Positions 966 to 14,700 of a stretch of DNA of 15,708 bases are shown in pieces (the first letter of the stretch is position 1; every line of letters starts with the position of its first letter). A program made the position numbers and the translations under genes. Under the pieces are notes generated by a model. That model saw only the letters and a program-made list of their open reading frames with translations. It ran no database searches and had not been told where the DNA came from. Source of the stretch: Candidatus Poseidoniaceae archaeon (GTDB lineage Archaea; Thermoplasmatota; Poseidoniia; Poseidoniales; Poseidoniaceae); the NCBI GenBank assembly GCA_013330015.1, contig DUJC01000115.1, positions 1 through 15,708 of the forward strand. The letters run 5' to 3'.

Positions 966-2927
966 ACGTTCGAGACGCTCAGGCGTCCCCATATCCCAAA
1001 ATTTGGTGTTGTCAATGTGGACTTGGATATCCTTCGACATCGCAGGGTAGACCGTCTTTTCCCACGACCATTTGCCTTCTTTACCGAACGTTTCAACCAC
1101 AGATTTCCTGACGATGGAAGTACCTGCTTCGTATCCATTGAATTCCTTTGGAACAACAATATCTTTGGCATAATGAATCATTCGACCATTGGCATACTGG
1201 AGGTTTTTGTCGTGATGTTCGCTTGTAACGGTCATGGTCAGTTTCGAGGATGCTTCTCGATGGAGATTGACCAAGGGTGCATATTGGATCGGGTGATAAT
1301 CGTCTCCCCACAATAGAATAAATTCGTCTTCCAAAGAATCTCGAGCATTCCACAGTGCACCTCCAGTTCCTAATTGCTTCTGTTCTTTGACGAAGGTCAG
1401 GTCAATACCCGGATGGAGGAATCCATCGAATTGTTCGCCATGATGCCCTGTCAACACGACAACACGGTTGCACCCTTGTTCTTTCACCCAGTCGAGGATG
1501 TGCGAGAGGATGGGTTTGCCAGCAACTTCAATCAAGGACTTTGGTTGATTTTTGGTCAAGTCACCAAGCCTTGTACCAAGGCCACCTGCAAGGATGACAA
1601 CCTGTGGCATTCGATGTGATTCTGCTATGCTTGCATACAATCTTCCGCTTTCGCGAAGCGTTCGTTCTTGTGTCTCAAAATCAACATGATACAGTCCAAA
1701 GCACTGCTCGTATCCTTCTGCCCATTCGAAGTTGTCCATCAGGCTCCAATGGTAGAAACCTCGGATATCAAGACCGTTTTCAATGGCCTCTGCAGTGACT
1801 TGCAAGTGTCTTCGCACGTGTTCGGGACGCATGTCATCATCATCATCAGCGACTCCGTTTTCGGTAACGATGATGGGTATGTTCAACGGGGCAACCATCT
1901 CAAAGGCACGCTTCAAACCTTCAGCATACATGGGATAGCGGAAGTCAGTTCGCTCCTCCCAAGGCCGAATCAGAGGGTCGATCTCAACCTTGGTCGGCAT
2001 GAATGGAGTCGCCAGCAAATGTGTGTAGTAATTGACTCCAATGAAATCACTGCTCCCTTTCAAGCCATCAATTGAAACGCTTTTCAAGGCAGAAGGTGGC
2101 TTGAAACGACCGGTTTTCAGCCCATCAATCCAACATCGATTGAACATTCCATCCAAGAGTCTTGCTTGAAAGCGGTGCAATGGGTTCCAACGTCGATATG
2201 GATCAAACAGATTGATGTTTTTGACAAGTCCAATCTTCCTTGTACCTCCATGCTCCATCGATTTAAGCGTCCGATAGCATCGAGCATGGGCTCGCATCAG
2301 GTTCAGCGAAACCTGTCGAGTTTTCTTGAACGAACGCTCACCCGGCGGAAATTCTCCGAGAACATAACCCATTGAAGCATAGACAGCTGGTTCGTTGATG
2401 GTGCACCACCATACAACTCGATTGCTCAACACTTCAAACATCTTGGAACAAAATCGAATCCAATAGAGAATATTTGCTTCATCTTCAAACGCCCCCATAT
2501 CTTCCCACCAGAGTGGGTTGGTAAAGTGATGGAGCGTGACCATGGGCTGGATTCCATTCTCTAATAGTTGGTCGACAAGATCGCTGTACCAATCGATAGC
2601 ATCTTGATTCCAAGTTCCCATTTCAGGTTCAATTCGACTCCATTCCAGCGAAAACCGGTAATGTGTGACATTCAAATCTTTGATGAGTTCAAGATCTTGT
2701 TCTTTGCGATTCCAGTGATCGCAGGCATCTCCGCTTTCTTGACCACTTTTTGAACGTGGTTCAAATCGAGTCCAATTGTTCGTGTTTCCACCCTCAATTT
2801 GGTGCGAAGCCGTAGCCACACCCCACATAAAGTTGGGTGGAAAGGCCCGTCCATTCATCAATTTGGAATAATCAACATTGTTCCAATTTCGATGCTCTTC
2901 AACACCCATACGACCACTGACCGTCAT
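933..2927 (-). CDS. Fusion protein: family 1 glycoside hydrolase plus sugar-1-phosphate nucleotidyltransferase
   Basis: The 664-residue product has two complete domains and no signal peptide, so it should be cytosolic. Residues about 24-437 form a GH1 beta-glycosidase: the N-terminal signature FMWGVATASHQIEG at 33-46, the acid/base glutamate E179 in TINEP, the nucleophile E356 in IIVTENG, and the C-terminal HWSLMDNFEWAEGY. Residues about 440-664 form a nucleotidyltransferase resembling RmlA, GlmU-N and HddC: VVILAGGLGTRL, then PKSL, LGTGGAL, WGDDY and, near the end, FWDMGTPERLERLEEFF. There is no stop or frame change between the domains; the second domain begins at an in-frame Met (ATG at 1610) with no visible ribosome site. 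The start chosen is ATG 2927, which overlaps the upstream TGA as ATGA; a TTG at 2942 would add five residues but is less likely. The sugar released and the nucleotide used cannot be read from the sequence. Confidence 0.88.
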   Translation of the reverse strand: MTVSGRMGVEEHRNWNNVDYSKLMNGRAFPPNFMWGVATASHQIEGGNTNNWTRFEPRSKSGQESGDACDHWNRKEQDLELIKDLNVTHYRFSLEWSRIEPEMGTWNQDAIDWYSDLVDQLLENGIQPMVTLHHFTNPLWWEDMGAFEDEANILYWIRFCSKMFEVLSNRVVWWCTINEPAVYASMGYVLGEFPPGERSFKKTRQVSLNLMRAHARCYRTLKSMEHGGTRKIGLVKNINLFDPYRRWNPLHRFQARLLDGMFNRCWIDGLKTGRFKPPSALKSVSIDGLKGSSDFIGVNYYTHLLATPFMPTKVEIDPLIRPWEERTDFRYPMYAEGLKRAFEMVAPLNIPIIVTENGVADDDDDMRPEHVRRHLQVTAEAIENGLDIRGFYHWSLMDNFEWAEGYEQCFGLYHVDFETQERTLRESGRLYASIAESHRMPQVVILAGGLGTRLGDLTKNQPKSLIEVAGKPILSHILDWVKEQGCNRVVVLTGHHGEQFDGFLHPGIDLTFVKEQKQLGTGGALWNARDSLEDEFILLWGDDYHPIQYAPLVNLHREASSKLTMTVTSEHHDKNLQYANGRMIHYAKDIVVPKEFNGYEAGTSIVRKSVVETFGKEGKWSWEKTVYPAMSKDIQVHIDNTKFWDMGTPERLERLEEFFNESRS

Positions 2928-5518
2928 TGAACGCGAGTCCAAGATCCATCAGGACCAACATTCCAGTATTGCAATTCTGTGCTTGCATCAACGTACCACC
3001 CTGTTTCGCCCTGATGTGTGCCTGGAGCGGCTTGCATAACACCAACTTGGCCAGCCTTTGTCGCTAGTTCTTGGCGTAATGCATCGTCGAGCGTAGGCTC
3101 TGGATTGGATGATTCAACCGTAACTGTCGTATCTGGAGCATCCACATCCAACACATCAGATTCGCTTGCATCCACAACCAGACGTTCTTCATCTTCCTCA
3201 GAAACTTCGTAGAATTCTTCCTCATCCCACTCTTCGCCCCTTGTGTTACCTCTGCGAATAAGAACGACAAGAACAACGAAAATGAGCAACAACAAGGCGA
3301 TGATGATTGAAACGGCCATGTTGGTTGAACCGAGTGTACCACCAAGGAGAACGGATTCAACATCGTAGAACTGTTGTGAAATCAGGCCATTCCAAGTGAC
3401 TGTGCACGAACGATCAGAGCCTGCTTCTTCGAGTTCAATTTCCCACGTATCCGATTTGATGTGTGTTGCTTTTCCAGACGTGCAGGATAACGAGGTCTGA
3501 TCTGGGTTGACTTCAACACGATTTCCTTGGGAATCTTCAGCCCATACGGTAATCAGTGTGACTTCACCTTGGCTTCTCGTTTCGTTGCTCATACCTGTGA
3601 TGACTCGAACTGCTTGTCCCGGAACGATGGTGAGTGGAATGGAATGCTCTGCCTCTCCTTCTGAAAGTTCAAGTTGGTAGGTTCCACTCGTCAGTCCCGT
3701 AAGCTGCCAGAAACCACGTCCACTGGAAGAAGCCTCCAAAGAAACAAACTCACCGCCCATTAGTGCCACGTTTTCAGCAGGAGCTGTGTTCCCATGAACA
3801 TCAACGAGTTCGACAAACAAATCGAATGGAACGCCCGCTTGGATGCTCAATCCATCATCATTGTCTGTCAGCAAGGAGGTACCAGTTCCCGGAATCACAT
3901 TGATTCGAACCGATGCAAAAACGCCATCAGCATTCGCACGTACTTCGTGTTCGCCTACTTGGTTTGGATACCACTTTCCATCAGCCATCCGAATTTCAAG
4001 AGTCCGATCCGCACCGGAAATCGTCCAATTGACAGCAACATAAGCGATGCTGTTTCCATAAGCATCGGTGAATTGTGGATTAAAATCGAGGAAGGTATCT
4101 GCTGCAACTTCTGTACCAGACTCTGGCAATTCAATGAAAGCGAGACGACCTGGTTCAACGTCGTTCGACCAAACGGATTGGAAGGTTACACCTGATTTTG
4201 GGTCGACGTAATCAGCTTTGAAGCCAATGGTTTCCATTTCCTTTGGCATGAGTGAAACATACGACGAGAAGATATCGACACTTGCAAATGACCCCTCTGT
4301 TTGTGAGATGTTGGCGTCGACTTGCCAAACATTTCCGAAGGAATCGATGGCCTCGTGCACCAAGGCGAGTTGCGTTCCGGCTGAAACACTGGATTGGCTG
4401 GGAACGAGGCGAGTCGCATCTGCTGAGCCATGCATGACGCCGACGTTTATGCTCGCTGGAACATCCGAGTCAACGACATGCAAGGTGAATTGACCCGCTT
4501 GACCGGGCGTCCAGTGCACTTCATCACCAACTTGAGAGAGTATACCATTGCCTACTGTCCAGTTTCCAATGGGAATGGGAACTGGAGAAGAGTAGCCTTG
4601 TGAGTCTGTACGAACAGCATCGAGGCGATAGACTTCTCCAGAAACGTAGGTTTCTGCTTCAGGTGTAATCTGTATCTCAACGATTGAGGCATCAGCAGGA
4701 ACCACTCGAATGGTGCTGTTGCCCCAAACTGAGCCAGCACGTACGGAGAGATTCCAGATACCAGGAGCTGAAGCATAGTAATAGCCAACCGGTGTAATTG
4801 TTCCATTCTCGACCGTCCAAACCTTGTTTCCAGCGAGCGTGTTGTTCATTTTTTGACCAAAAGAATCGAGCAAATCAGGATAGATTTGCATTCCTTCGCC
4901 ACTTCGTAACACCAACTCAGATGGGAACGAGAACTCATACGGATCACCAGCAATCGCCTCCATCGTTAAGCTCTGCTCCAACTGATCGTATCGAGCAACC
5001 ACCTCGTACAAGCCAAGCGCTGGAGGCGTCCAAGACGGTTCTCCTTGGCCAACATAGAGCCCGTCAACGGTCCAAACAACATCGCGTCCCGGACGGGGGT
5101 TGTCATGCGAATCGATGAGATTCGCTTGCAGTGTGAACGGGAATTTCGCTCGTGGCTGAGCAGACGTATTGATCTCAATGGATTGACCAAAGCCTGCTTG
5201 AACAGTAACGACAACGGTATCATTGAACCCTGCATGCTCAGCCCGGATGGTCACTTGACCTGCTGACCATGGGAAAAACAAACCGCTATCCTCGATGGTT
5301 CCGTTCGTTGCAAACCATGTAATTTCACCATCAACAACGTTGTTGAGAGCGTCATAGAGCGTCGCTTCCATTTGCAGGACACCATCGGATGAAATCACAG
5401 TTGATGGTGTTGAAATCACAACCTGCGCAGGTGGCCCTGCCGCTACAGCGGGAATGGTAGCGACAACAGAAACAAGCATGAGGCTACACAAAAACAGTGC
5501 AGTCCTTTGCTGATTCAT
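2924..5518 (-). CDS. Membrane-anchored surface protein with about eight Ig-like modules and a Trp-rich cytoplasmic tail
   Basis: The 864-residue product begins with a signal peptide (MNQQRTALFLCSLMLVSVVA, cleavage probably after AVAA). About eight Ig-like beta-sandwich modules of 80-95 residues follow (about 28-728), many containing a 'xDxxGNxxP' turn of the bacterial Ig-like/invasin type and ending in 'xxVxPG' linkers. One transmembrane helix lies at about 731-753, followed by RR, which predicts a cytoplasmic C-terminus. The tail of about 108 residues is strongly acidic and ends in a Trp/Tyr-rich motif. The protein lacks catalytic motifs, so a stalk, adhesin or scaffold role is inferred. The start at 5518 is set by the signal peptide and by a Shine-Dalgarno site; the longer TTG start at 5548 lies inside the previous gene. 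It is 8 bases downstream of the giant gene and overlaps the hydrolase gene by ATGA. I recognise no named family for the full-length protein. Confidence 0.85.
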   Translation of the reverse strand: MNQQRTALFLCSLMLVSVVATIPAVAAGPPAQVVISTPSTVISSDGVLQMEATLYDALNNVVDGEITWFATNGTIEDSGLFFPWSAGQVTIRAEHAGFNDTVVVTVQAGFGQSIEINTSAQPRAKFPFTLQANLIDSHDNPRPGRDVVWTVDGLYVGQGEPSWTPPALGLYEVVARYDQLEQSLTMEAIAGDPYEFSFPSELVLRSGEGMQIYPDLLDSFGQKMNNTLAGNKVWTVENGTITPVGYYYASAPGIWNLSVRAGSVWGNSTIRVVPADASIVEIQITPEAETYVSGEVYRLDAVRTDSQGYSSPVPIPIGNWTVGNGILSQVGDEVHWTPGQAGQFTLHVVDSDVPASINVGVMHGSADATRLVPSQSSVSAGTQLALVHEAIDSFGNVWQVDANISQTEGSFASVDIFSSYVSLMPKEMETIGFKADYVDPKSGVTFQSVWSNDVEPGRLAFIELPESGTEVAADTFLDFNPQFTDAYGNSIAYVAVNWTISGADRTLEIRMADGKWYPNQVGEHEVRANADGVFASVRINVIPGTGTSLLTDNDDGLSIQAGVPFDLFVELVDVHGNTAPAENVALMGGEFVSLEASSSGRGFWQLTGLTSGTYQLELSEGEAEHSIPLTIVPGQAVRVITGMSNETRSQGEVTLITVWAEDSQGNRVEVNPDQTSLSCTSGKATHIKSDTWEIELEEAGSDRSCTVTWNGLISQQFYDVESVLLGGTLGSTNMAVSIIIALLLLIFVVLVVLIRRGNTRGEEWDEEEFYEVSEEDEERLVVDASESDVLDVDAPDTTVTVESSNPEPTLDDALRQELATKAGQVGVMQAAPGTHQGETGWYVDASTELQYWNVGPDGSWTRVQ
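2927..3007 (-). other. Trp/Tyr-rich C-terminal tail motif of the 864-residue protein
   Basis: The last 27 residues begin ETGWYVD and end with YWNVGPDGSWTRVQ. They follow an acidic, low-complexity cytoplasmic region. The pattern 'xTxWxVD ... YWxxxPDGSW' is also found, modified, at the end of the neighbouring 3057-residue protein. This suggests a small conserved cytoplasmic docking or recognition element. I cannot assign it to a known domain; it superficially resembles short aromatic repeats such as WW- or OCRE-like sequences. Confidence 0.55.
3337..5437 (-). repeat. Array of about eight Ig-like modules (864-residue protein)
   Basis: These are protein-level repeats of 80-95 residues with low sequence identity, counted by eye from recurring features: a start such as 'xxIxxxPxxxxVxxG', a central 'DxxGN' turn, a Trp after a beta strand, and a closing 'V-x-P-G' or similar linker. 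Module boundaries are approximate. The last module, next to the membrane, contains the only two cysteines of the ectodomain, suggesting one disulphide bond. Confidence 0.65.
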
Positions 5519-5522
5519 GTCA

Positions 5523-5528
5523 TCACCT
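5523..5528 (-). promoter_or_regulatory. Shine-Dalgarno site of the 864-residue surface protein
   Basis: On the minus strand AGGTGA (part of AGGTGAT) lies four bases before the ATG at 5518 and overlaps the TAG stop of the giant gene. It matches the anti-Shine-Dalgarno sequence and decides the start codon. It also implies translation of the second gene on the same mRNA as the first. Confidence 0.75.
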
Positions 5529-8500
5529 AATCCTGCCACTGGACCCAATCACTCTGTCCAGGTTCTCGATAGTACCATGTTTCATCCTCGCTTTGAGCCC
5601 ACTCAGTACCATCATCATCGGTTCGATAGTCAACCATCCAACTGGTATCTTCCATTTCTTCCTCTTCCTCTTCCTTTTCCTCTTCCTGAGGAGGGGGTCC
5701 TGATGGGCCTTTATCCGGAGCTGGCCCGCTTGGACCAGGAGCCGGCCCTGATGGACCACGAGCCGAACGTGGCTCATCCTCTTCTTCATCCTCGTCGTAA
5801 TCATCGTCCCAATCATCATCGCGACCTGAGCGTAATGCCATGACGAGTAAGACAAGAACGACGACAACAATGAGTCCAACCAGGACTGCTCCAATGTAGT
5901 ACAATGTTCCTCCTGCTGCAAAGAAACCACCAAGTGTACCTGTAACTTCAATCTCGTAGTCCTCACTAACTTGACCAGCTGACACCGTAATAGTTTGAGG
6001 ACCACTGTCCAAGGTTGTCACTCTCCATGTACCTTGGCCAGTACTCTCGACGGTTCCACGTCCAGTCGAATCGACACGAGTACTGCTCGGAACAGGAATT
6101 TGGTTTCCATATTTATCAAATGCTTGTACATTTACCTCAATAGAGGCCTCTTGCTCAACCGTAAGAGCGGACAATTCAACTTCGATGTTATCAACAATCA
6201 TCTGAGGTGAAATCGTCAAGTTGAATGTGTTAGAAGTAGTTGATGTGGAATAGACCATAACGTGGTTACCTGCAGCAGACGCTTCGTAGGTGTAGGAACC
6301 TGGGCCAACCCTTGGAACCACACGATCCGACAAGGAACCATCCTCAACCCATTCAACATCCTGCGGGAAGGTGTTTCCATCGCTGTCCATACCGGTAATG
6401 GTGATATCGATCTTTTCTCCTGCGTCTTCATCGAACGTATTGAGTTCATGTTCGAGTGATACAGCAATACCGTGGTACACAGAAATATCAACAGAACGAG
6501 TGTAGTTGAATCCATCTGCATTCTCAACGTAAGCAAGCAGTCGGTAGTTGCCGACCGTTGTCGCTTCCCACTGATAGCCATCAGCGACAAAGTCCGATGT
6601 GATGTCGGTGACTGTTCCGGAATCTGTATCCTCGAATAGCCACGTTAGAACATCAACACTGAGTGGGTTCAAATCACCATCACTGAGAGCGACAGAGAAG
6701 TCAATTGAGTGATCAGCACTGATGTTGTAGACTGTTCCTGTATCCCCGTTTGAAGCTGTTGTGGTCATTGTGAAGACTTGGATGATACCTTCTGAAACCT
6801 CCACATTCACAATCTCGCTGAACAGTTGACCGTTGTACGTGTATTCTGCTCGAACGACATAGGCGGTAGACGAGGCTAGGACCGGCATAAATTCAGTCTC
6901 ATCCGATGGTGTACCCGTATCCGGCCAAAGTACGGATTGCTCGCTCCACTCTGGATGAGCAACGGTCCAGTTAACGTCAATGGTCCAGCGGTTGCCTTTC
7001 GCATCGCTTGCCTTGGCCTTAACAAGAAGAGTTTCATCGGCTGTTATGCCGAACGTCTGGTCGTTTGCATCGTTTGAATCAACGATGAGGACCATATTGT
7101 CCATGACACCCTTTGAAACGTTGATGGTTATCGATGCGAGGGTTGTCTCATATTGTGCAGAGATAATTCGAGCACCGAGGCCGTTCGGAATCCACTGGAC
7201 TGGATGGTCGAGCGTGATGTTCAACGCGCCATCATCGATTGAAGTCCAATTTGCTAGCGGTAGGGCGACAGGTAATCGGTTGCCCTGAATATCGATTCTC
7301 GTGGTATTGAGGAAGACGAACTCATCAGCAGTGATGTCCCATGCGGATGGAACGATTTCCAAAGATGCCATCTGACCGTGTCCAGTCTGGATGGTAATTG
7401 AGTCCGTCAGGCCGATTGCAGATGTAACAGAAAGTTGCCAGGTACCAACGGTGTCAGCGAAATACATGCTCGTTGCTTCACTGTAGAATCCATCGTTGAC
7501 GGAATAGGAAAGTGCACCTGCCTCTGTGAGCGGAATGACATTCCCGAATTGGTCGTAAAGCGTTGTTGTGATTTCACATTCAGTACCAGCAGGTACAACT
7601 CCTGCACATCCTGTGAGTTCGAGGGTTGTTGGTGCGCCCAGCTCTACAAGGATGTTAACCACAACAGAGGTTGTTTGCCATGTGACGGTAACGGTTTGTC
7701 CACCAACAGCGTATGGCTGGAAGATATCGCCGAATGTACCGCCCATGCTACCGTTGCTTGGCGTGAACGTAATGCTCTGACCTGGTACAGCATTGCCGTG
7801 TTGATCCACAACGTCTGCTGTCAATTCAAGCGTTTCATCCGCAGTGATTGTGGCAGTCAGCGGTGTAACAATCAATTCGATTGGAGCACCGGGTGTGACG
7901 GTCACTGTCTCGTCCTCACAGACGACACCGAAACAAGCGGTGACCGTGTGGGTGCCAACCGATGATGGCGTAAACAATCCGGTCGAGTCGATGCTACCGC
8001 TGCTTGTCGACCAAACAACAGGCACACTCGCTGCCAAGGAATTGTAGTCAAATGCCGAAGCACTAAACTGAACGGTTGAATCAGCATCCGTTGATGTCGC
8101 CGTCGGTGAAATAATGATGGAATCAATATCGGTGTAATTCATTACCAACGATGGACGATTGGAAAGTGTTTCATCGCTGTTATCGCTAAAGTCCAGCTCC
8201 ATCCAACCCTGTGTCGGTGTACCAACAATGACCCAACTGTGAGTGCCATCGATGTAGAGCATTCTGTGCCCGAGGTTGAAGAGTATCCATGTATCCGTCG
8301 TTTGAGAATTGCTGATGAAAACCGAATCGAGTGGTGTTGCATCATAATCAACTCCTGCTAGCATTCCTTGAGCACCCCAACTAGCGCTACCTGTTCCGTT
8401 CCATGTTGCAGTCGTCTCGGACCAACCAGTGGTGAGAACTCGATGAACACTAAGAGTCATTCCTGTAGCACCACCACCAAAGTTCAAGTCCTCGAGATAC

Positions 8501-11500
8501 ATGCTGTATGTCACGTCATGAACGTTCATGCTTGGGTTGAATGGGATTTGCCCGAAATCAACATCGACAAGCAAGCGGTACTCGTCTTGTGCAGCATTGA
8601 CACCGATTACATTGCCATTTCCATCGAGATTGGTATCGCTCAAGCCACTGAAGATGGACACGTCTTGGACATTGGTATGCGCAAGTTCTTCAATTTCATT
8701 ACCAGTTTGGAATTGATATAACCAGATGTGGCCGTTGTCGTACGTCGTTTGAGGATCACCCATTCCGACAACCCAACGAGGTGAAGATGGACCTGGAATC
8801 GAACCATTTACCGCTTGAACCCACCACTCGAAAGTAGAACCTGAATCGACATCGTTCGCAAATGTGAAACTTGTACCGGTGATTTGGCTGGATGTTGCTG
8901 ACTTGAACGTGAATTGTCCCGTTTCGTTTCGTATTGTAACGATATAGCCTGTCGCTCCCGGAACGGTGTTCCACGTTAGAACTGGCTTGTCCAAAGTATC
9001 GAGGAGATCGTTCGTGGTATCGTAGAGCACAGCACCATCAAGAGGCGAGAGAAGTACAGGCTGTGCAGGAGGTACAACACCAGCAACATTGTCGACATAG
9101 TCGATCCGTAGTGTTGGGCGCAAGGACTCCGTTGCGTATTCACCAGAGGCAAACGTGTGGAGGCTGCTTCCCGAACCTACGGCCTTGAGTTGGATGGTCA
9201 TTGTGAGATTACCATTTGCAATGTTCGATTGTGCAAGCGAGGTGATGTCCCATTCAAGCCATCCAGATGGAGGCGTAACAGAAAGTGTCGAACGTGTGAT
9301 TTCAGTAGCACTGCATGCAGGTGGTTGGAGTGCCGTGACACTCGATTCTGTAAAGGTCGAACAAGCGTGAGCACTCACGGTCAGCGGAGAGACACCAGCG
9401 ACTTGGGTTCGATGCAATCGGAGCATGGTCGAAGTCGGTGTCATTGCACTTGGCCATGGCATCTGCGAGAGATCGAATTCGATGAAAATCTCATGGTCGC
9501 CGGATGAACTCGCACCTAGGTTGAGCGTTGTACTACCGCCGTAGTTTGTGTTCAATGCAGAAGAAACGGTGTGCGTATCTGGAGCAGCCGGGAGCAATCC
9601 CGTATCGGTGAAGATTGAACCACTCGAGAGATTCACCGTGTGATTACCCGCACCATCGTCATAGCCTTGGTCGTCTGGAACTCGGTATGTGTTGACTTGC
9701 GACCACTCGCCGTGTCGGTAAAATTCCTCTTGGACGATTTCTTGGAAGGAAAATACACGCCAGTAAATCCAGTTATCTATTGATGTAAGATTCGCAATGG
9801 TGAATGTAGAATTCGTTGGATCCCAGGTAATATTTCCATCGGTGAATCCATCAGATGTGGTTACAGTTCCGCAGTTGAGGTCGTAAATCATCCGGGCATC
9901 TGAAGCGGAGCAGATGTAGAACCCAGTTTCATTGTTTGATGGTGGGGTCCATGACAGGTTTACGTGGTCGGCGCCAGATGGTCTTGGGGAAGAGTAGTTC
10001 CAAACAGTTGTTGCATCAACTGGCAACAGTCCCGTTGGGCTTGAGTCGACGTATGCATTGGTCATCCGGTACGTGATGTTCAGAGAAGGACGTAGCGCTG
10101 CACTCGCTTCATTGCTTGAATAGAAGTCCATTCGGCCGTCAACATTGCTGTAATTTTCCTCGGCTTGGATAAGGAAATCGAGCGTTGTCATACCGTTCGC
10201 AACTGCGCGTTGAAGCATCATTGTGATATCTCCGCGATGCGTTGCGTTCGATGAGTCAACCAAGCTGGCTCCGCCCTGTGGGATATTCGTATCGGATGAA
10301 TGGTATGCTCCAGGAGAATTCCACTGCGTTGAATTGGTGGCATTGTTCCAGTTCGCATCACCATCAAAGGCGGTGTTGAGTACAGATCCACTCCACCACA
10401 CTTCGCCATAACTGGTCGACTTCGTATTCAACGTGAAGAAGGCACTCATGATTTCGTAGGTTCCATTGATTGGTAACTTTGTCAAATCAACCGACACAAT
10501 GGTGGATGAGCGTTGCGATGATCCAGAACTGTATGAGGAACGACCAACGCTAATGGTTCCTGAGTTGTAGAGGTTGGCATTTGGTGCTGCTGAATCCAGT
10601 GTTGTATCTGTTACGAATCCTGACGGTTCGTTCATCTCTGGCAAGAATCCACCTTCGGAGACGTTGATGTAACCCCATGTACTGTTGATTTCGTTTCCAA
10701 TGTCGTGTGGAATATGGAAGACAGAACTGGTCGAACGCGGCCCAAGCATCTCATCGTTGACGGGTTGAACGAACCATCGAATGCTTTGGTTTGTTGCCAG
10801 ATTACTCGATGGTTGGAATGAGAGGTTCTGCACGTCAAACATGGTCGTGTCAATTCGTGAATCGTAGATTGAGAAACCTTCCATAATATCTGTTGGATCG
10901 TTCTGAATGAACACCTTCCAATCGTCGATGTTGGCGGCATTGGAGTGTGTCCATGTCATCACAGGACGGGTTGAAGGTTCAGGAACGTGGCTGCTCAAAT
11001 TCCAAGCAATATCGCCATCCATTGGAACTGCATTACTTGCGGCAACCGTTGGAATCGATGCAGTCCCATCGGTCCAAGTGAGATTAAGCCAGGGTCGCTG
11101 ATTGGTTGCTCCTTCCGTACTCGTGAAAGTAATCAAACCATTAGATGCATCACTGGTCATCAGGGCGATGGAGAGATAGGAGTCACCGTTGGCAAGCGCT
11201 GCTTGCACAAGTTCGGTTACGTCCCAATCCATCCAGTTCGCTGGTACAGATGCACTGAGGTCACTCAATGAACCGACGTCGGATCCAATACCTCGAGCAC
11301 CATCGACAGACCAATTGTTGGTGCCGTCATAGGTCGAATTGTTGAGTGCAGTGGTCCATGTTTGTAGGACAGGACGAACGGCTACCTGAACGTTGGTATC
11401 TGAACCCAATTGGGCCCACATGGTCAATTCAGCGTTGGTCACACGAGCATTGCTTGGTGATGGCAGCTGATTCAAAGGAATCTTGAGAAGAGCAGAAGCA

Positions 11501-14500
11501 TGGTGTCCGCTACTCAACTCACCGACCTTCAATGATGTTGACGCCGAGTGGTTTTGTTGGCCTTCGATACCATCTTCTGCAAGCCACGTATCGATGAAGT
11601 GTGGAAGTTGCAGTTCAGGCATGGCTTCATGGTGGCGAATTTCAACAGCAGCACTTGTCGCGGAGAGGTTCCAAGTGACCAATGAAGGGAGATTGAAGTG
11701 GAAGGTTTCCGACCAATTTCCAAGTTGGTTGGTCGAAGAAACGGCACGAACGCGCCAGTACCACGTCTTCCCATCATCGAGATCGGACGTTGGTGTGAAC
11801 GAATTGTTGGTCAAATCAAAGCCTGAATTTGACCATGACGTTTCAATGCTCATGTCATTGCTATCAAAGGTGTTGACAGTATCCATTTGAACAGCATAAC
11901 CACTGACTCCCACGCCGGAAGAGTGTGTCCAATTCATGAGAGGTCGGTACACTGGTTCTGGATTGATTCCATCGGCAACGCTCCAACTTCCATTCAATGG
12001 AAGAACTGGAACAGGCTCACTTGGAACGGCATCTGAGCCAGGCACGTAAACAAACGAAAGCTCTGGGCGCTTGGCATCAACAGCGGCTCCAGTATGGAAC
12101 AGAACGTCACGAATTTGACCGCTGCCTGCTCCAATGATTCCGAGGATAAAATCCGCAGAGTGGTTGTTTCGCATTGCATTTTGAACGGCTAACGTGACGT
12201 TCCAATTTGCAGAAGAACTCGATGTGTAACCAGCACCTATGCTGACCGAATCGAGAAGCGAAGAACGTTCGCTTCCCTTTGCACCGACCGAATTCCATGT
12301 GTTCGTTCCGTCGTAGGTTGCCCACGTAGCACCGTTTTCAGTCCATCCATGTTGTGTGTTTTCCCATGCTCCGACAACAGGTGTTCCGAATGGGAAATCA
12401 CTCAGGTACAATTCAAGGTTTGCAGATTCAACTGCGTAACCAGATGGTAAGAAGGTTGAGGAAAGATCGCACCCAAACAGAACCGTTGTTTCCGAAGGAA
12501 TCGTGTTGTACGAAACTTGCAATTCAGACTCAGAACCGTAGTTTGAACTCGGCATACCTGAATCGATGTAGGCGTCAGCACACGCTGGGTGAAGACCGTC
12601 GGAACTTGCGTTGCCTTGCTTCAACCTGAATTCGTACCGATCACCCCCAAGCCATGTTGAGTTCATGGCACTGATGAGGAATGAAGAGTACGACCACTCT
12701 CCGTGACGGTTGTCAGAATCAACGTGCAGCATACGCCAGTTGTACATATGCCCTGCTTCGAGACTGTCAAGACCGGTGAAACTTATCTCGCCATCGCTTG
12801 GTGCAAAGTCTGTATCGGTTCGAGTATCAATTCGTGCGACACGATCGTGGAACAATGAGTCGGTCGATAATTCGAGAATCATATCGTAGGAAGAGGAGAT
12901 TGAAGATGCCCAAGTTAGTGTAGGTGTTCTGTTGCCGGTAAAGTTGTGACCCGTTTGGTTCCACAAGGTTTCCCCGTCCCATGGCGATGTTAGAGAGGGA
13001 GCGACAGTAACAGGAGATGACCAATCGTACTTGATGTACAAATGTGGCTTATCATCTTCGTTGACTGCGTCAGAGGAATGGAAGGTGACGGAATCAACGC
13101 CACTGTTAGCATACGCACCGTTTTGTGAGCGGGCAGTCATGGCAAAATCAAGACTTGAGGTTGGCATTCCGTCGTCAAGGTATTGTTGAAGCATGCTTGT
13201 CATATCAAAGACGAAGTCGTCGCTTGTTTGTGACCCAATCACGCCTGAGTCGGTGACATAGTCGAGGTACTCCCGACCTCCTTCATCCCAAAGTTGACCA
13301 TTGGTAGGTCGACGCCATGTGACTTCATTCTCAGACCAAATGTCAACCGAATCCACTTCATGTAGTGCTAGACTTGCAGAACCACTCGAAGTCGATCGTG
13401 TCACATTCAGCGAGGCTTCAACAATCGTCGCATTAGGGTGTAAACCTAAATGATCGAAGTTAATCCTGAAGTGAGATATCGTCTCACGTGTTGTCGTAAC
13501 TTGCGTTACGAACGTCGAATCTGAACCAAAGTTGACATTCTTATTATTCTCGTCAACGTAGGTATCCTCGATGAATATGAAGTCATCTGAAAGATCGTTG
13601 ACATCGACCGCGATGGACGCAGTACCGTCATTGTTTGCCGTTATGTCGTGCGCAGGCAAGAAGAAGTATCCACTCGTCCACGAGCCAAGGGTACCTGTTT
13701 GATCCATCGCTCGCATTCTGTAGTGCATCTCAGTGCCGTTTTCGAATGCATCCGTGGAGGGAATATTGAGAGCACCAGTGGCTCCGGATATCGTGAAGAT
13801 CGGCGCATGAATATCGGTATTATACAACCAATTGTAATTGTCCTGATCGCTCTTGAAGCCATCATCCATCGAGATTTGGACCTCTGCGAGTATTCCAGAA
13901 TAGGAATCCCAGGTCATACTCGGATTCAAATCAGCAGCGAGGTAGAAATCGTTGGACATGAGAGGAGCGCCATCGTCGACAAAGTTTGGTGTGATGGTTC
14001 CACCGGACCCTGCTGTCGACGTCGATGAATCCACTCGGAGGCTCGGCCGATTACCGACGCTGAGCGTTTCGTTCAGAGCACAGTCGTATTGTGAACCAAG
14101 AGCAGAAACGATGATCTCGAGCGCCGAGGCACCCGAAGCTACAGCACTTTGAGCAAGCGCTGTAACATTGAGTTGTACGTTGGATGATCCCCCTGTCGGC
14201 CCGAGAGGAGAGGTAACAATTGGTGGCTCCCAATCGGAGCGGTCCGTACCATCCTCAACACCTGGCTCACCCCACGCTAGGATTCCATCTCTTGAGTTCC
14301 AAGTTGCATTTTCATCCCAGGTCAGGCTGGTTGAAGCGGGGTAAACCGCTAAGCCTATGGATGCCGCATTGTTCGAACAAACGAGATCTAATCGAGCAGA
14401 ATGGATGGTATCAGTCGAAGCAAAGTTGAGAGGGAATGAGAGGAGAAGCCGGGCGTCGCTCGTTCCAGATACACCGAGCAGACCCGTATCAGCGCCAGCA

Positions 14501-14700
14501 TAATCGCTGTTTGGATTATCGGAATCGATGTAGGTATCCAGTGTTGGACTTATGGTTGAAATGACATGTTGAACGGCTGGTTCCTCTTTCAAAACTTCTG
14601 GCGCAGGAAAGGCGGTTGGAACAAAGACGTCGGCAAGAAGGAACATCAAGATAAGAGTCACTGCTGTGGAGACATTTCGATTTGCGGTACGGTTTCTCAT
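5527..14700 (-). CDS. Giant membrane-anchored surface protein: 7 DNRLRE-type modules with FN3-like spacers, 8 Ig-like modules, TM helix, charged tail
   Basis: The 3057-residue product starts with a signal peptide (core AVTLILMFLLADVFV). Seven DNRLRE-type modules (disaggregatase-related/CBM96-like) follow at about 55-227, 377-560, 707-887, 1032-1210, 1361-1545, 1706-1870 and 2009-2192. Each opens with a 'DTYID'-like strand, has a central 'W.E...TW' strand, and closes with 'RPxLxxxY'. Between them are six FN3-like modules with 'PxxTW...W.V......G.WS' patterns. Residues about 2193-2925 hold about eight Ig-like modules, and about 2933-2955 a membrane helix. The cytoplasmic tail of about 100 residues contains Asp/Glu tracts, three GPSGP repeats and a Trp-rich end. 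Members of the DNRLRE group are known on archaeal and bacterial surface proteins and some bind polysaccharide, so adhesion or polysaccharide capture is the inferred role. There are no catalytic motifs. The start at 14700 fits the signal peptide. This is the first gene of a three-gene operon. Confidence 0.88.
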   Translation of the reverse strand: MRNRTANRNVSTAVTLILMFLLADVFVPTAFPAPEVLKEEPAVQHVISTISPTLDTYIDSDNPNSDYAGADTGLLGVSGTSDARLLLSFPLNFASTDTIHSARLDLVCSNNAASIGLAVYPASTSLTWDENATWNSRDGILAWGEPGVEDGTDRSDWEPPIVTSPLGPTGGSSNVQLNVTALAQSAVASGASALEIIVSALGSQYDCALNETLSVGNRPSLRVDSSTSTAGSGGTITPNFVDDGAPLMSNDFYLAADLNPSMTWDSYSGILAEVQISMDDGFKSDQDNYNWLYNTDIHAPIFTISGATGALNIPSTDAFENGTEMHYRMRAMDQTGTLGSWTSGYFFLPAHDITANNDGTASIAVDVNDLSDDFIFIEDTYVDENNKNVNFGSDSTFVTQVTTTRETISHFRINFDHLGLHPNATIVEASLNVTRSTSSGSASLALHEVDSVDIWSENEVTWRRPTNGQLWDEGGREYLDYVTDSGVIGSQTSDDFVFDMTSMLQQYLDDGMPTSSLDFAMTARSQNGAYANSGVDSVTFHSSDAVNEDDKPHLYIKYDWSSPVTVAPSLTSPWDGETLWNQTGHNFTGNRTPTLTWASSISSSYDMILELSTDSLFHDRVARIDTRTDTDFAPSDGEISFTGLDSLEAGHMYNWRMLHVDSDNRHGEWSYSSFLISAMNSTWLGGDRYEFRLKQGNASSDGLHPACADAYIDSGMPSSNYGSESELQVSYNTIPSETTVLFGCDLSSTFLPSGYAVESANLELYLSDFPFGTPVVGAWENTQHGWTENGATWATYDGTNTWNSVGAKGSERSSLLDSVSIGAGYTSSSSANWNVTLAVQNAMRNNHSADFILGIIGAGSGQIRDVLFHTGAAVDAKRPELSFVYVPGSDAVPSEPVPVLPLNGSWSVADGINPEPVYRPLMNWTHSSGVGVSGYAVQMDTVNTFDSNDMSIETSWSNSGFDLTNNSFTPTSDLDDGKTWYWRVRAVSSTNQLGNWSETFHFNLPSLVTWNLSATSAAVEIRHHEAMPELQLPHFIDTWLAEDGIEGQQNHSASTSLKVGELSSGHHASALLKIPLNQLPSPSNARVTNAELTMWAQLGSDTNVQVAVRPVLQTWTTALNNSTYDGTNNWSVDGARGIGSDVGSLSDLSASVPANWMDWDVTELVQAALANGDSYLSIALMTSDASNGLITFTSTEGATNQRPWLNLTWTDGTASIPTVAASNAVPMDGDIAWNLSSHVPEPSTRPVMTWTHSNAANIDDWKVFIQNDPTDIMEGFSIYDSRIDTTMFDVQNLSFQPSSNLATNQSIRWFVQPVNDEMLGPRSTSSVFHIPHDIGNEINSTWGYINVSEGGFLPEMNEPSGFVTDTTLDSAAPNANLYNSGTISVGRSSYSSGSSQRSSTIVSVDLTKLPINGTYEIMSAFFTLNTKSTSYGEVWWSGSVLNTAFDGDANWNNATNSTQWNSPGAYHSSDTNIPQGGASLVDSSNATHRGDITMMLQRAVANGMTTLDFLIQAEENYSNVDGRMDFYSSNEASAALRPSLNITYRMTNAYVDSSPTGLLPVDATTVWNYSSPRPSGADHVNLSWTPPSNNETGFYICSASDARMIYDLNCGTVTTSDGFTDGNITWDPTNSTFTIANLTSIDNWIYWRVFSFQEIVQEEFYRHGEWSQVNTYRVPDDQGYDDGAGNHTVNLSSGSIFTDTGLLPAAPDTHTVSSALNTNYGGSTTLNLGASSSGDHEIFIEFDLSQMPWPSAMTPTSTMLRLHRTQVAGVSPLTVSAHACSTFTESSVTALQPPACSATEITRSTLSVTPPSGWLEWDITSLAQSNIANGNLTMTIQLKAVGSGSSLHTFASGEYATESLRPTLRIDYVDNVAGVVPPAQPVLLSPLDGAVLYDTTNDLLDTLDKPVLTWNTVPGATGYIVTIRNETGQFTFKSATSSQITGTSFTFANDVDSGSTFEWWVQAVNGSIPGPSSPRWVVGMGDPQTTYDNGHIWLYQFQTGNEIEELAHTNVQDVSIFSGLSDTNLDGNGNVIGVNAAQDEYRLLVDVDFGQIPFNPSMNVHDVTYSMYLEDLNFGGGATGMTLSVHRVLTTGWSETTATWNGTGSASWGAQGMLAGVDYDATPLDSVFISNSQTTDTWILFNLGHRMLYIDGTHSWVIVGTPTQGWMELDFSDNSDETLSNRPSLVMNYTDIDSIIISPTATSTDADSTVQFSASAFDYNSLAASVPVVWSTSSGSIDSTGLFTPSSVGTHTVTACFGVVCEDETVTVTPGAPIELIVTPLTATITADETLELTADVVDQHGNAVPGQSITFTPSNGSMGGTFGDIFQPYAVGGQTVTVTWQTTSVVVNILVELGAPTTLELTGCAGVVPAGTECEITTTLYDQFGNVIPLTEAGALSYSVNDGFYSEATSMYFADTVGTWQLSVTSAIGLTDSITIQTGHGQMASLEIVPSAWDITADEFVFLNTTRIDIQGNRLPVALPLANWTSIDDGALNITLDHPVQWIPNGLGARIISAQYETTLASITINVSKGVMDNMVLIVDSNDANDQTFGITADETLLVKAKASDAKGNRWTIDVNWTVAHPEWSEQSVLWPDTGTPSDETEFMPVLASSTAYVVRAEYTYNGQLFSEIVNVEVSEGIIQVFTMTTTASNGDTGTVYNISADHSIDFSVALSDGDLNPLSVDVLTWLFEDTDSGTVTDITSDFVADGYQWEATTVGNYRLLAYVENADGFNYTRSVDISVYHGIAVSLEHELNTFDEDAGEKIDITITGMDSDGNTFPQDVEWVEDGSLSDRVVPRVGPGSYTYEASAAGNHVMVYSTSTTSNTFNLTISPQMIVDNIEVELSALTVEQEASIEVNVQAFDKYGNQIPVPSSTRVDSTGRGTVESTGQGTWRVTTLDSGPQTITVSAGQVSEDYEIEVTGTLGGFFAAGGTLYYIGAVLVGLIVVVVLVLLVMALRSGRDDDWDDDYDEDEEEDEPRSARGPSGPAPGPSGPAPDKGPSGPPPQEEEKEEEEEEMEDTSWMVDYRTDDDGTEWAQSEDETWYYREPGQSDWVQWQD
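5530..5652 (-). other. Trp/Tyr-rich C-terminal tail motif of the giant protein
   Basis: The last 40 or so residues begin EDTSWMVDY, contain TEWAQSEDETWYY, and finish REPGQSDWVQWQD. Aromatic residues recur every few positions in an acidic context. The order 'xTxWxVD ... WYYxxPGxSxW' parallels the tail of the downstream surface protein, although most intervening residues differ. It should lie in the cytoplasm, because it follows the single membrane helix. Confidence 0.55.
5655..5687 (-). repeat. 33-base homopurine tract encoding an acidic run
   Basis: The minus strand is uninterrupted purine (the plus strand is all C/T) and encodes the Glu/Lys run EEEKEEEEEE in the cytoplasmic tail of the giant protein. 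It is built of GAA/GAG codons with a recurring AGGAAG hexamer. The tract is low-complexity and may be prone to length variation. Confidence 0.8.
5689..5757 (-). repeat. Three imperfect 21-base coding repeats (GPSGP[AP]P)
   Basis: Units lie at 5737-5757, 5716-5736 and 5689-5709. The first two are directly adjacent; the third is separated by six bases encoding Asp-Lys. Each encodes GPSGPAP or GPSGPPP. The units differ at several positions, mostly third codon positions, so protein selection on the motif is likely. They form a Pro/Gly hinge between two acidic blocks of the tail. Confidence 0.75.
5926..8124 (-). repeat. Array of about eight Ig-like modules (giant protein)
   Basis: From residue about 2193 to 2925 the giant protein changes to Ig-like modules of 80-110 residues. 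They show 'ITADETLxLxAxxxDxxGN' patterns, central Trp strands and closing 'VxxG' linkers. The style and approximate count match the array in the neighbouring 864-residue protein. Boundaries were set by eye. Confidence 0.62.
8125..14538 (-). repeat. Seven-unit super-repeat of DNRLRE plus FN3-like modules, about 325 residues per unit
   Basis: DNRLRE module starts fall at about residues 55, 377, 707, 1032, 1361, 1706 and 2009, giving spacings of about 322, 330, 325, 329, 345 and 303. Each unit is a DNRLRE module of about 175 residues, an FN3-like module ending in 'LP' or 'IP', and a linking strand. The last unit passes straight into the Ig-like array. Sequence identity between units is low at both protein and DNA level, so this is an old duplication series and not a recent tandem expansion. 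Confidence 0.7.

Follow-up and report, generated by a model that had tools for sequence, protein, structure and literature searches.

Tandem genes for a DNRLRE-headed and a headless surface protein on homologous eight-Ig stalks, with predicted folded cytoplasmic tails, in Marine Group II archaea

Several described systems resemble the locus reported here. One group is formed by the Big-domain adhesins of bacteria (invasin, intimin, FdeC and LigA). The two-component S-layer of Sulfolobus, SlaA/SlaB, is encoded by tandem genes and has an immunoglobulin (Ig)-like stalk subunit with a membrane anchor. Methanogens possess surface proteins with DNRLRE, CBM96 and disaggregatase-repeat modules, and an excerpt of PMC2447325 names DNRLRE in archaeal and bacterial surface proteins. 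In Thermococcales, the hypervariable arCOG07710 module is an operon in which a large Ig-domain surface protein comes first and smaller membrane proteins follow (PMC8416519, in excerpt). We describe a pair of adjacent genes, P1 and P2, from Marine Group II (MGII), which according to excerpts of PMC6461757 and PMC6864105 are the most abundant planktonic archaea of the ocean surface and have no cultured members. The DNA analysed (the window) is contig DUJC01000115.1, 15,708 nucleotides from a Candidatus Poseidoniaceae archaeon (assembly GCA_013330015.1, 57% complete). Particle attachment of MGII is discussed via archaella, thrombospondin and flotillin genes in excerpts of PMC6461757 and PMC6336850. 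Judged by titles and the start of abstracts in the open PMC literature (subscription papers and supplements lie outside this scope), no paper on the P1-P2 locus or its tails was found among the matches listed.

Both genes lie on the minus strand. P1 (5527..14700, 3057 amino acids, from the open frame and its translation) carries a signal peptide, a head of DNRLRE modules and FN3-like linkers, a stalk of eight Ig modules, a membrane helix and a cytoplasmic tail. P2 (2924..5518, 864 amino acids) is headless and otherwise has the same order of signal peptide, eight-Ig stalk, membrane helix and tail. The P1 stop is separated by 8 nucleotides from the P2 ATG at 5518, a start codon picked by its signal peptide in an open frame that starts at 5548. 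P2 and P1 residues 2180-3057 were modelled with AlphaFold2 from family alignments of 52 and 47 rows, giving a mean predicted local distance difference test (pLDDT) score of 83.2 and 83.4 respectively, with most module blocks near 90. Both models contain eight beta-sandwich modules. A first-pass annotation made from the letters of the window had counted about eight Ig-like modules in each protein by eye; the predicted number is exactly eight. In P2 the modules comprise residues 32-107 (5198..5425), 113-189 (4952..5182), 193-273 (4700..4942), 279-362 (4433..4684), 368-453 (4160..4417), 459-542 (3893..4144), 546-632 (3623..3883) and 636-721 (3356..3613). Those of P1 comprise residues 2192-2269 (7894..8127), 2275-2353 (7642..7878), 2359-2440 (7381..7626), 2444-2529 (7114..7371), 2533-2636 (6793..7104), 2640-2742 (6475..6783), 2748-2831 (6208..6459) and 2838-2920 (5941..6189). 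The annotation had drawn the pair as 2924..8124; the first position is indeed the end of P2, whereas the second is the outer end of the P1 stalk and not the end of the gene.

The predicted stalk modules superpose on solved Big domains of LigA, SbsC, invasin and FdeC, which fixes their fold class and not their function. A Foldseek search with the whole P2 model retrieved long Ig arrays of many kinds at low template-modelling scores, informative for fold class only. Big_1 (PF02369) scores 29.6 bits in P2 and 21.5 bits in P1, under its curated cut-off of 34.9, and is named for many orthologues in precomputed Pfam lists. Unlike invasin and intimin, the two proteins show no outer-membrane beta-barrel: no barrel family is among the P1/P2 matches at E ≤ 1, and in the P2 model an N-terminal helix stands directly before module 1 with no barrel between. 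The predicted anchor is instead a C-terminal helix, followed by a predicted cytoplasmic mini-domain.

The two stalks are homologous, module by module. BLASTP aligns P1 2195-2924 with P2 43-740 at 24% identity over 741 columns (E 2e-32), and the family profiles align over 668 columns (E 2.3e-59). When all 64 cross pairs of P1 and P2 modules were scored by hhalign, the in-register pairing outscored every other of the 40,320 permutations, with a mean module score of 61 against 24-32 at shifts of 1 to 4. Same-index pairs are the best in seven of eight rows and seven of eight columns, the exception being module 2. Different modules of the same protein score 30 on average within P1 and 34 within P2, and the same-index pair exceeds every within-protein match at five of the eight positions (not at modules 2, 6 and 7). 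Because same-index pairs are on average more alike than modules of one protein, the array was probably copied whole after the modules had mostly diverged. Independent growth of two eight-module arrays that match by chance would find some comfort in the mutual relatedness of modules within each protein, and in P1 module 2, which scores higher with P2 module 1 than with P2 module 2; the register test nevertheless rules it out, with modules 2, 6 and 7 as exceptions, and a third paralogue, P3, holds the same register although modules 2 and 3 are missing, so that this reading is already contradicted and keeps practically no probability. The first-pass annotation had proposed such a module comparison and a duplication on one plan, for which the stalk gives strong evidence; a common origin of the tails did not bear out (see below). 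We found neither differing module numbers nor stalks that are no closer to each other than to unrelated Ig proteins. Searched with P2 at E ≤ 10, its own genome, incomplete as it is, returned P2 itself and P1 only. Outside the order, a P1-profile match at 1e-10 occurs in eight of 389 genomes; where positions were listed, in three of these, the match covers ∼200 of 875 profile positions, two modules' worth.

The tandem arrangement, which the first-pass annotation had suggested looking for in related genomes, is conserved. The P2 profile found 131 loci, of which the best 80 were read. In 73 of these 80, P1 is directly upstream of P2; one more (L093) encodes a P1 tail in its 367 bases upstream of P2, and the remaining six start at or inside P2. 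Wherever the sequence upstream of P2 is available, P1 is thus the preceding gene (74 of 74 loci), and the adjacency spans proteins down to 36% identity. Upstream of P1 lies rfcS, in all 48 loci where the P1 frame has a closed 5' end. Closed P1 frames longer than 2900 amino acids measure 3019-3183 (median 3059, n = 47); one closed frame of 2853 amino acids (L069) stands outside this count. In contrast to the arCOG07710 module, described as hypervariable in the excerpt of PMC8416519, order and length are conserved across the 80 loci, and the genes that follow are stalk paralogues. In three rows (L064, L069 and L091) the P1 tail is out of frame or has masked letters; these were kept uncorrected in alignments A2 and A3, which feed both structure predictions and the profiles, and were dropped from P1 identity and tail counts and from the stalk lengths of both proteins. 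One record, L054 (CALDQY010000023.1), is probably a mislabelled bin: its title reads Rhodobiaceae bacterium, and the archaeal locus is found in it at 91% identity. Contigs C9 and C28 of G015 hold two P1-P2 loci with equal P2 scores, possibly from two strains in one bin.

P3 was surveyed in 12 regions that come from 11 further genomes and represent both families; f1 and f2 are here equated with Poseidoniaceae and Thalassarchaeaceae. It stands at the locus in ten of the 12 regions and downstream of P2 in nine; in G026 it directly follows rfcS, and P1 and P2 are absent from the locus. It has six modules, corresponding in order to 1, 4, 5, 6, 7 and 8, without 2 and 3, and in some genomes the matches are too weak for every single module to be assigned. 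Loci L042-L121 yielded no P3. In a tree of 60 stalks, P1 (25), P2 (25) and P3 (10) each form one clade (support 100/100, 99/98 and 100/99), and f1 and f2 split inside each of them. The tree was rooted at its midpoint and carries a long-branch warning that includes L149 and L152. If the root lies between the three groups, the presence of both families inside each clade makes the duplications older than the families. In the P2 of the three f2 genera examined (L143, L144, L149-L151 and L153) the match starts at residue 246-262, ∼210 residues later than in f1, so that these proteins have ∼210 extra N-terminal residues before module 1.

In both proteins, basic residues come after the membrane helix, then an acidic linker predicted to be disordered and finally a small end predicted to be folded. 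The helices have low model confidence, yet are clear in the sequence as hydrophobic stretches: in P1 at 5824..5907, including the first basic residue (helices 744-763 of the model, pLDDT ∼57-75), and in P2 at 3257..3325 (helix 732-753, pLDDT ∼51-61). The P1 tail has 99 residues, with 37 D/E, 7 K/R and 6 W, the P2 tail 110, with 27 D/E, 7 K/R and 4 W, in agreement with the C-terminal helix, basic residues and tail of about 100 residues described in the first-pass annotation. The LGG linker that it named is present in both window proteins, but the P1 orthologue consensus retains GG only. In P1 the linker (5641..5823) is predicted to be disordered (pLDDT < 50 over most of it) and contains GPSGPAP-type repeats at 5689-5757; GPxGP-type repeats occur in 42 of 44 tails counted, and the GPSGPAP type varies from 0 to 6 copies across 44 genomes. 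The Trp-rich end of P1, denoted type A (5530..5631), is conserved in alignment A4 and is predicted to form a three-stranded mini-sheet of strands 3024-3027, 3033-3036 and 3042-3045 (pLDDT ∼83-89). P2 has its linker at 3095..3256 and ends in a mini-domain denoted type B (2927..3085), predicted with pLDDT ∼90 over most of its length to comprise one helix (812-825) and three strands (840-843, 849-854 and 860-863). By the positive-inside rule both ends would lie inside the cell. Pairwise identity within P2 is 0.63 for the type-B domain and 0.48 for the stalk, and lowest of the four P2 regions measured, 0.29, for the linker; within P1 it is 0.52 for the modules, 0.60 for the membrane region, 0.59 for the linker and 0.57 for the type-A end.

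The shared Trp-rich end of the first-pass annotation stands as a common layout. As sequences, types A and B are not detectably related (hhalign probability 1.2%), and a common origin of the two tails was not found. Both resemble the WW and the actinobacterial DUF2510 domains, which are short, three-stranded and Trp-rich; the GWY...W...W spacing of type B adds to the likeness. Neither family, however, was among the Pfam families at E ≤ 10 for 16 members of A4 and 22 members of A5, in a scan where HMMER filters hide most matches above ∼0.1. Pfam, NCBIfam and PDB sequences gave nothing credible for either type.

The tails are not confined to this pair of proteins. Sixty relatives within the order were searched for type A; 42 of them have it, the same 42 genomes that match the P1 profile. 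A protein search with P2 was positive in 41, the type-A set minus G004, which matched the P1 profile by its tail alone. The 18 P1-negative relatives all belong to f2 (six genera), have small genomes of 1.2-1.6 Mb and gave no type-A match at 1e-5. Carriers in the 42 type-A-positive genomes were counted by eye from frame length: 36 have a type-A frame of 232-283 amino acids, G016 has a frame of 110, and 38 have a larger non-P1 type-A protein (G002, G009, G019 and G026 show short or cut frames). At least one non-P1 carrier, either of 232-283 amino acids or larger, is present in all 42. The bodies to which the tail is attached differ. In G000, G031 and G033 they are FG-GAP propeller proteins; G044 has type A on a WD40 propeller protein and on a protein with a weak TSP3 match, and G026 on a carrier without a Pfam match. 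In G000 and G033 type A also ends soluble proteins, in which neither a signal peptide nor a membrane helix is visible. These are highly acidic (L156:3093-3884 and L158:2695-3435), and the gene divergent from each is, by eye, MPN/JAB protease-like. The source genome has the soluble type-A protein at C82, with a length of 246 amino acids. G044, an f2 genome with six type-A matches, has its two carriers at L160:1103-5053 and L159:1336-4857.

Type B was detected in 41 of the 60 relatives, in 40 of them on P2 or P3. In G026 it follows the C-terminal membrane helix of a 2771-residue surface subtilase (Peptidase_S8, PA14 and laminin-G; L163:3013-11328), and in G398, of the same genus, it is on a frame of 2770 residues. 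The search was limited to 389 genomes of the phylum. In it, type A, type B and the P1 profile of stalk and tail each retrieve one identical set of 83 genomes, all within the order; the eight P1-profile genomes outside the order are excluded from that set. The tails therefore behave as separable modules bound to this lineage, and G026, in which P1 and P2 were not found, has kept them.

The head of P1 (residues ∼49-2180, 8161..14556, boundaries by eye) contains seven DNRLRE modules with FN3-like linkers, placed outside the stalk as the first-pass annotation had it. NF033679 (DNRLRE) scores 285.2 bits over seven stretches (cut-off 34), PF24517 (CBM96) 192.9 bits over five (cut-off 26) and PF06848 barely exceeds its cut-off (36.2 versus 33.9). 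These families are shared with the methanogen surface proteins; P1 appears to differ from them in that its head tops a stalk of eight Ig modules and that the protein has a cytoplasmic tail. According to an excerpt of PMC9971899, the founding member of CBM96 attaches to internal alginate chains. Alginate binding and a groove with Lys, Arg and Tyr residues characterise this family, and the family matches suggest that the P1 head may bind polysaccharide. P1/P2 are present in f1 genera (not found in g4) and in the f2 genera g15, g19 and g17; the P1 profile also matches in the f2 genus g22. The excerpted text of PMC6336850 reports glycoside hydrolases for algal oligosaccharides from no subclades other than MGIIa and MGIIb.9,.10 and.11, and flagellar genes from MGIIa and MGIIb.9,.10 and.14. 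If our genera correspond to these subclades, the distribution of P1/P2 resembles the pattern of algal oligosaccharide degradation reported there. In G000 (contig C154, L039) a membrane helix followed by a short acidic tail seems to close the frame of a GH13 alpha-amylase.

We lean, with some reserve, towards P1 being an adhesin and P2 its headless companion, both derived from one ancestral stalk gene, with tails that dock to cytoplasmic partners. A single eight-Ig stalk gene would have been duplicated in tandem before the two families of Poseidoniales split. Both products would be type I membrane proteins. P1 would act as a giant adhesin whose seven DNRLRE/CBM96-type modules bind anionic polysaccharide, probably algal, with the stalk keeping the head modules off the membrane and one helix serving as anchor. 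P2, presumably made from the same transcript, would stand beside it at equal stalk height. Inside the cell, the flexible acidic linker would present a folded mini-domain that docks to cytoplasmic partners. Type A would be a common docking module on P1, on other surface proteins and on the soluble protein, the latter being the best candidate for part of a scaffold, and type B would be the version of P2 and P3. The wider proposal, that types A and B are two new docking modules wiring unrelated MGII surface proteins (a CBM96-type giant, FG-GAP and WD40 propellers and a surface protease) to a shared scaffold that includes the soluble type-A protein, we regard as doubtful. The same doubt applies to two further parts of it: that the GPSGPAP repeats of P1 itself could serve as a ligand, and that these tails would do in archaea what cytoplasmic tails do for the adhesion receptors of animals, linking attachment outside to the inside.

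A number of observations weigh against the adhesin-and-companion proposal or its docking part. Stalk lengths are nearly fixed, at 719-738 residues in P1 (n = 44) and 696-702 in P2 (n = 49), and each stalk has eight modules, as expected from the matched stalks of the first-pass annotation; the lengths do not co-vary, however (r = 0.00, 42 genomes), and give no evidence of partnership. Since P3 has only six modules besides, the locus as a whole does not keep to matched stalk lengths. The co-distribution of type A with P1 is partly built in, the P1 profile containing the type-A tail, and was measured on tails only and not on tail-less carrier bodies. One episode of streamlining or loss could explain it, though the tails occupy several separate loci. 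A single docking logic for both types is a guess, given that they show no sequence relation, and the type-A end of P1 is not above its linker or membrane region in conservation. Archaellin (E ≤ 1e-5) occurs in 35 of the 36 genomes of f1 (the incomplete source genome has none; in G009 it is below the cut-off) and is also found in P1-positive g15 and g19 and in P1-negative g14, but not in P1-positive g17; g14 and g17 break the pattern, leaving the archaellum linked to P1/P2 in part. GH13 amylase, in 29 of 42 positive and two of 18 negative genomes, is likewise just partly in line as a linked trait; the two negative genomes (g12) have much higher whole-model scores and frames of 547-596 amino acids, and look like another type. 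Microscopy of the North Sea, in an excerpt of PMC6864105, describes MGII cells as mostly unattached.

Three other explanations compete with an adhesin and its companion. The proteins, perhaps with P3, might form a two- or multi-component envelope like an S-layer, with the Ig-rich anchored protein as stalk subunit and the P1 head as outer lattice or glycan-binding face. This would recall SlaA/SlaB, with the difference that P1/P2 are absent from part of the order and have a cytoplasmic tail that is predicted to be folded. The 18 of 60 relatives that lack the P1 profile and the tails would need another envelope, and the same folds are found in adhesins (invasin, FdeC, LigA); we think an envelope quite improbable. 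The mini-domains, on the other hand, could be signals for sorting, membrane insertion or turnover, being short, at the extreme C-terminus and attached to unrelated ectodomains, as sorting signals are. Such a role sits poorly with the predicted fold of both ends and with the cytoplasmic location that the positive-inside rule gives them. It sits poorly too with the soluble type-A proteins of G000 and G033 and with type-A frames of similar length, by eye, in 36 of 42 positive genomes, and it strikes us as unlikely.

A further explanation is that P1 and P2 took up independent jobs after the duplication and that their adjacency reflects vertical inheritance of an operon. It would account for stalk lengths without co-variation, for tails of different types and for parts that are separable, as in G026, where rfcS is followed by P3 and the locus has neither P1 nor P2. 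An adjacency kept in every locus with upstream sequence between proteins as low as 36% identical, and the 8-nucleotide gap in the window, argue in the other direction, and we hold independent jobs to be somewhat unlikely. Polysaccharide binding, co-transcription, docking of the tails and a partnership of P1 and P2 are what we infer.

At the edges of the window, rfcS (14798 onwards) is divergent from P1, and a GH1 and nucleotidyltransferase fusion (933-2942) comes after P2. Of the 80 loci, 21 (L042-L058, L060, L078, L107 and L117) have a homologue of this fusion after P2; the remaining loci gave no BLAST match at 1e-5. Further downstream, a galactokinase-like gene (132-965) converges on the fusion gene with a frame overlap of 33 bases.

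For MGII, the P1-P2 locus offers a candidate polysaccharide adhesin that is both conserved and specific, with a distribution like that of the reported degraders of algal sugars. The tails are the surprising part: small, conserved modules, predicted to be folded, that are reused on unrelated ectodomains and on a soluble protein. They offer a concrete, testable candidate for how archaeal surface proteins may communicate with the cell interior.

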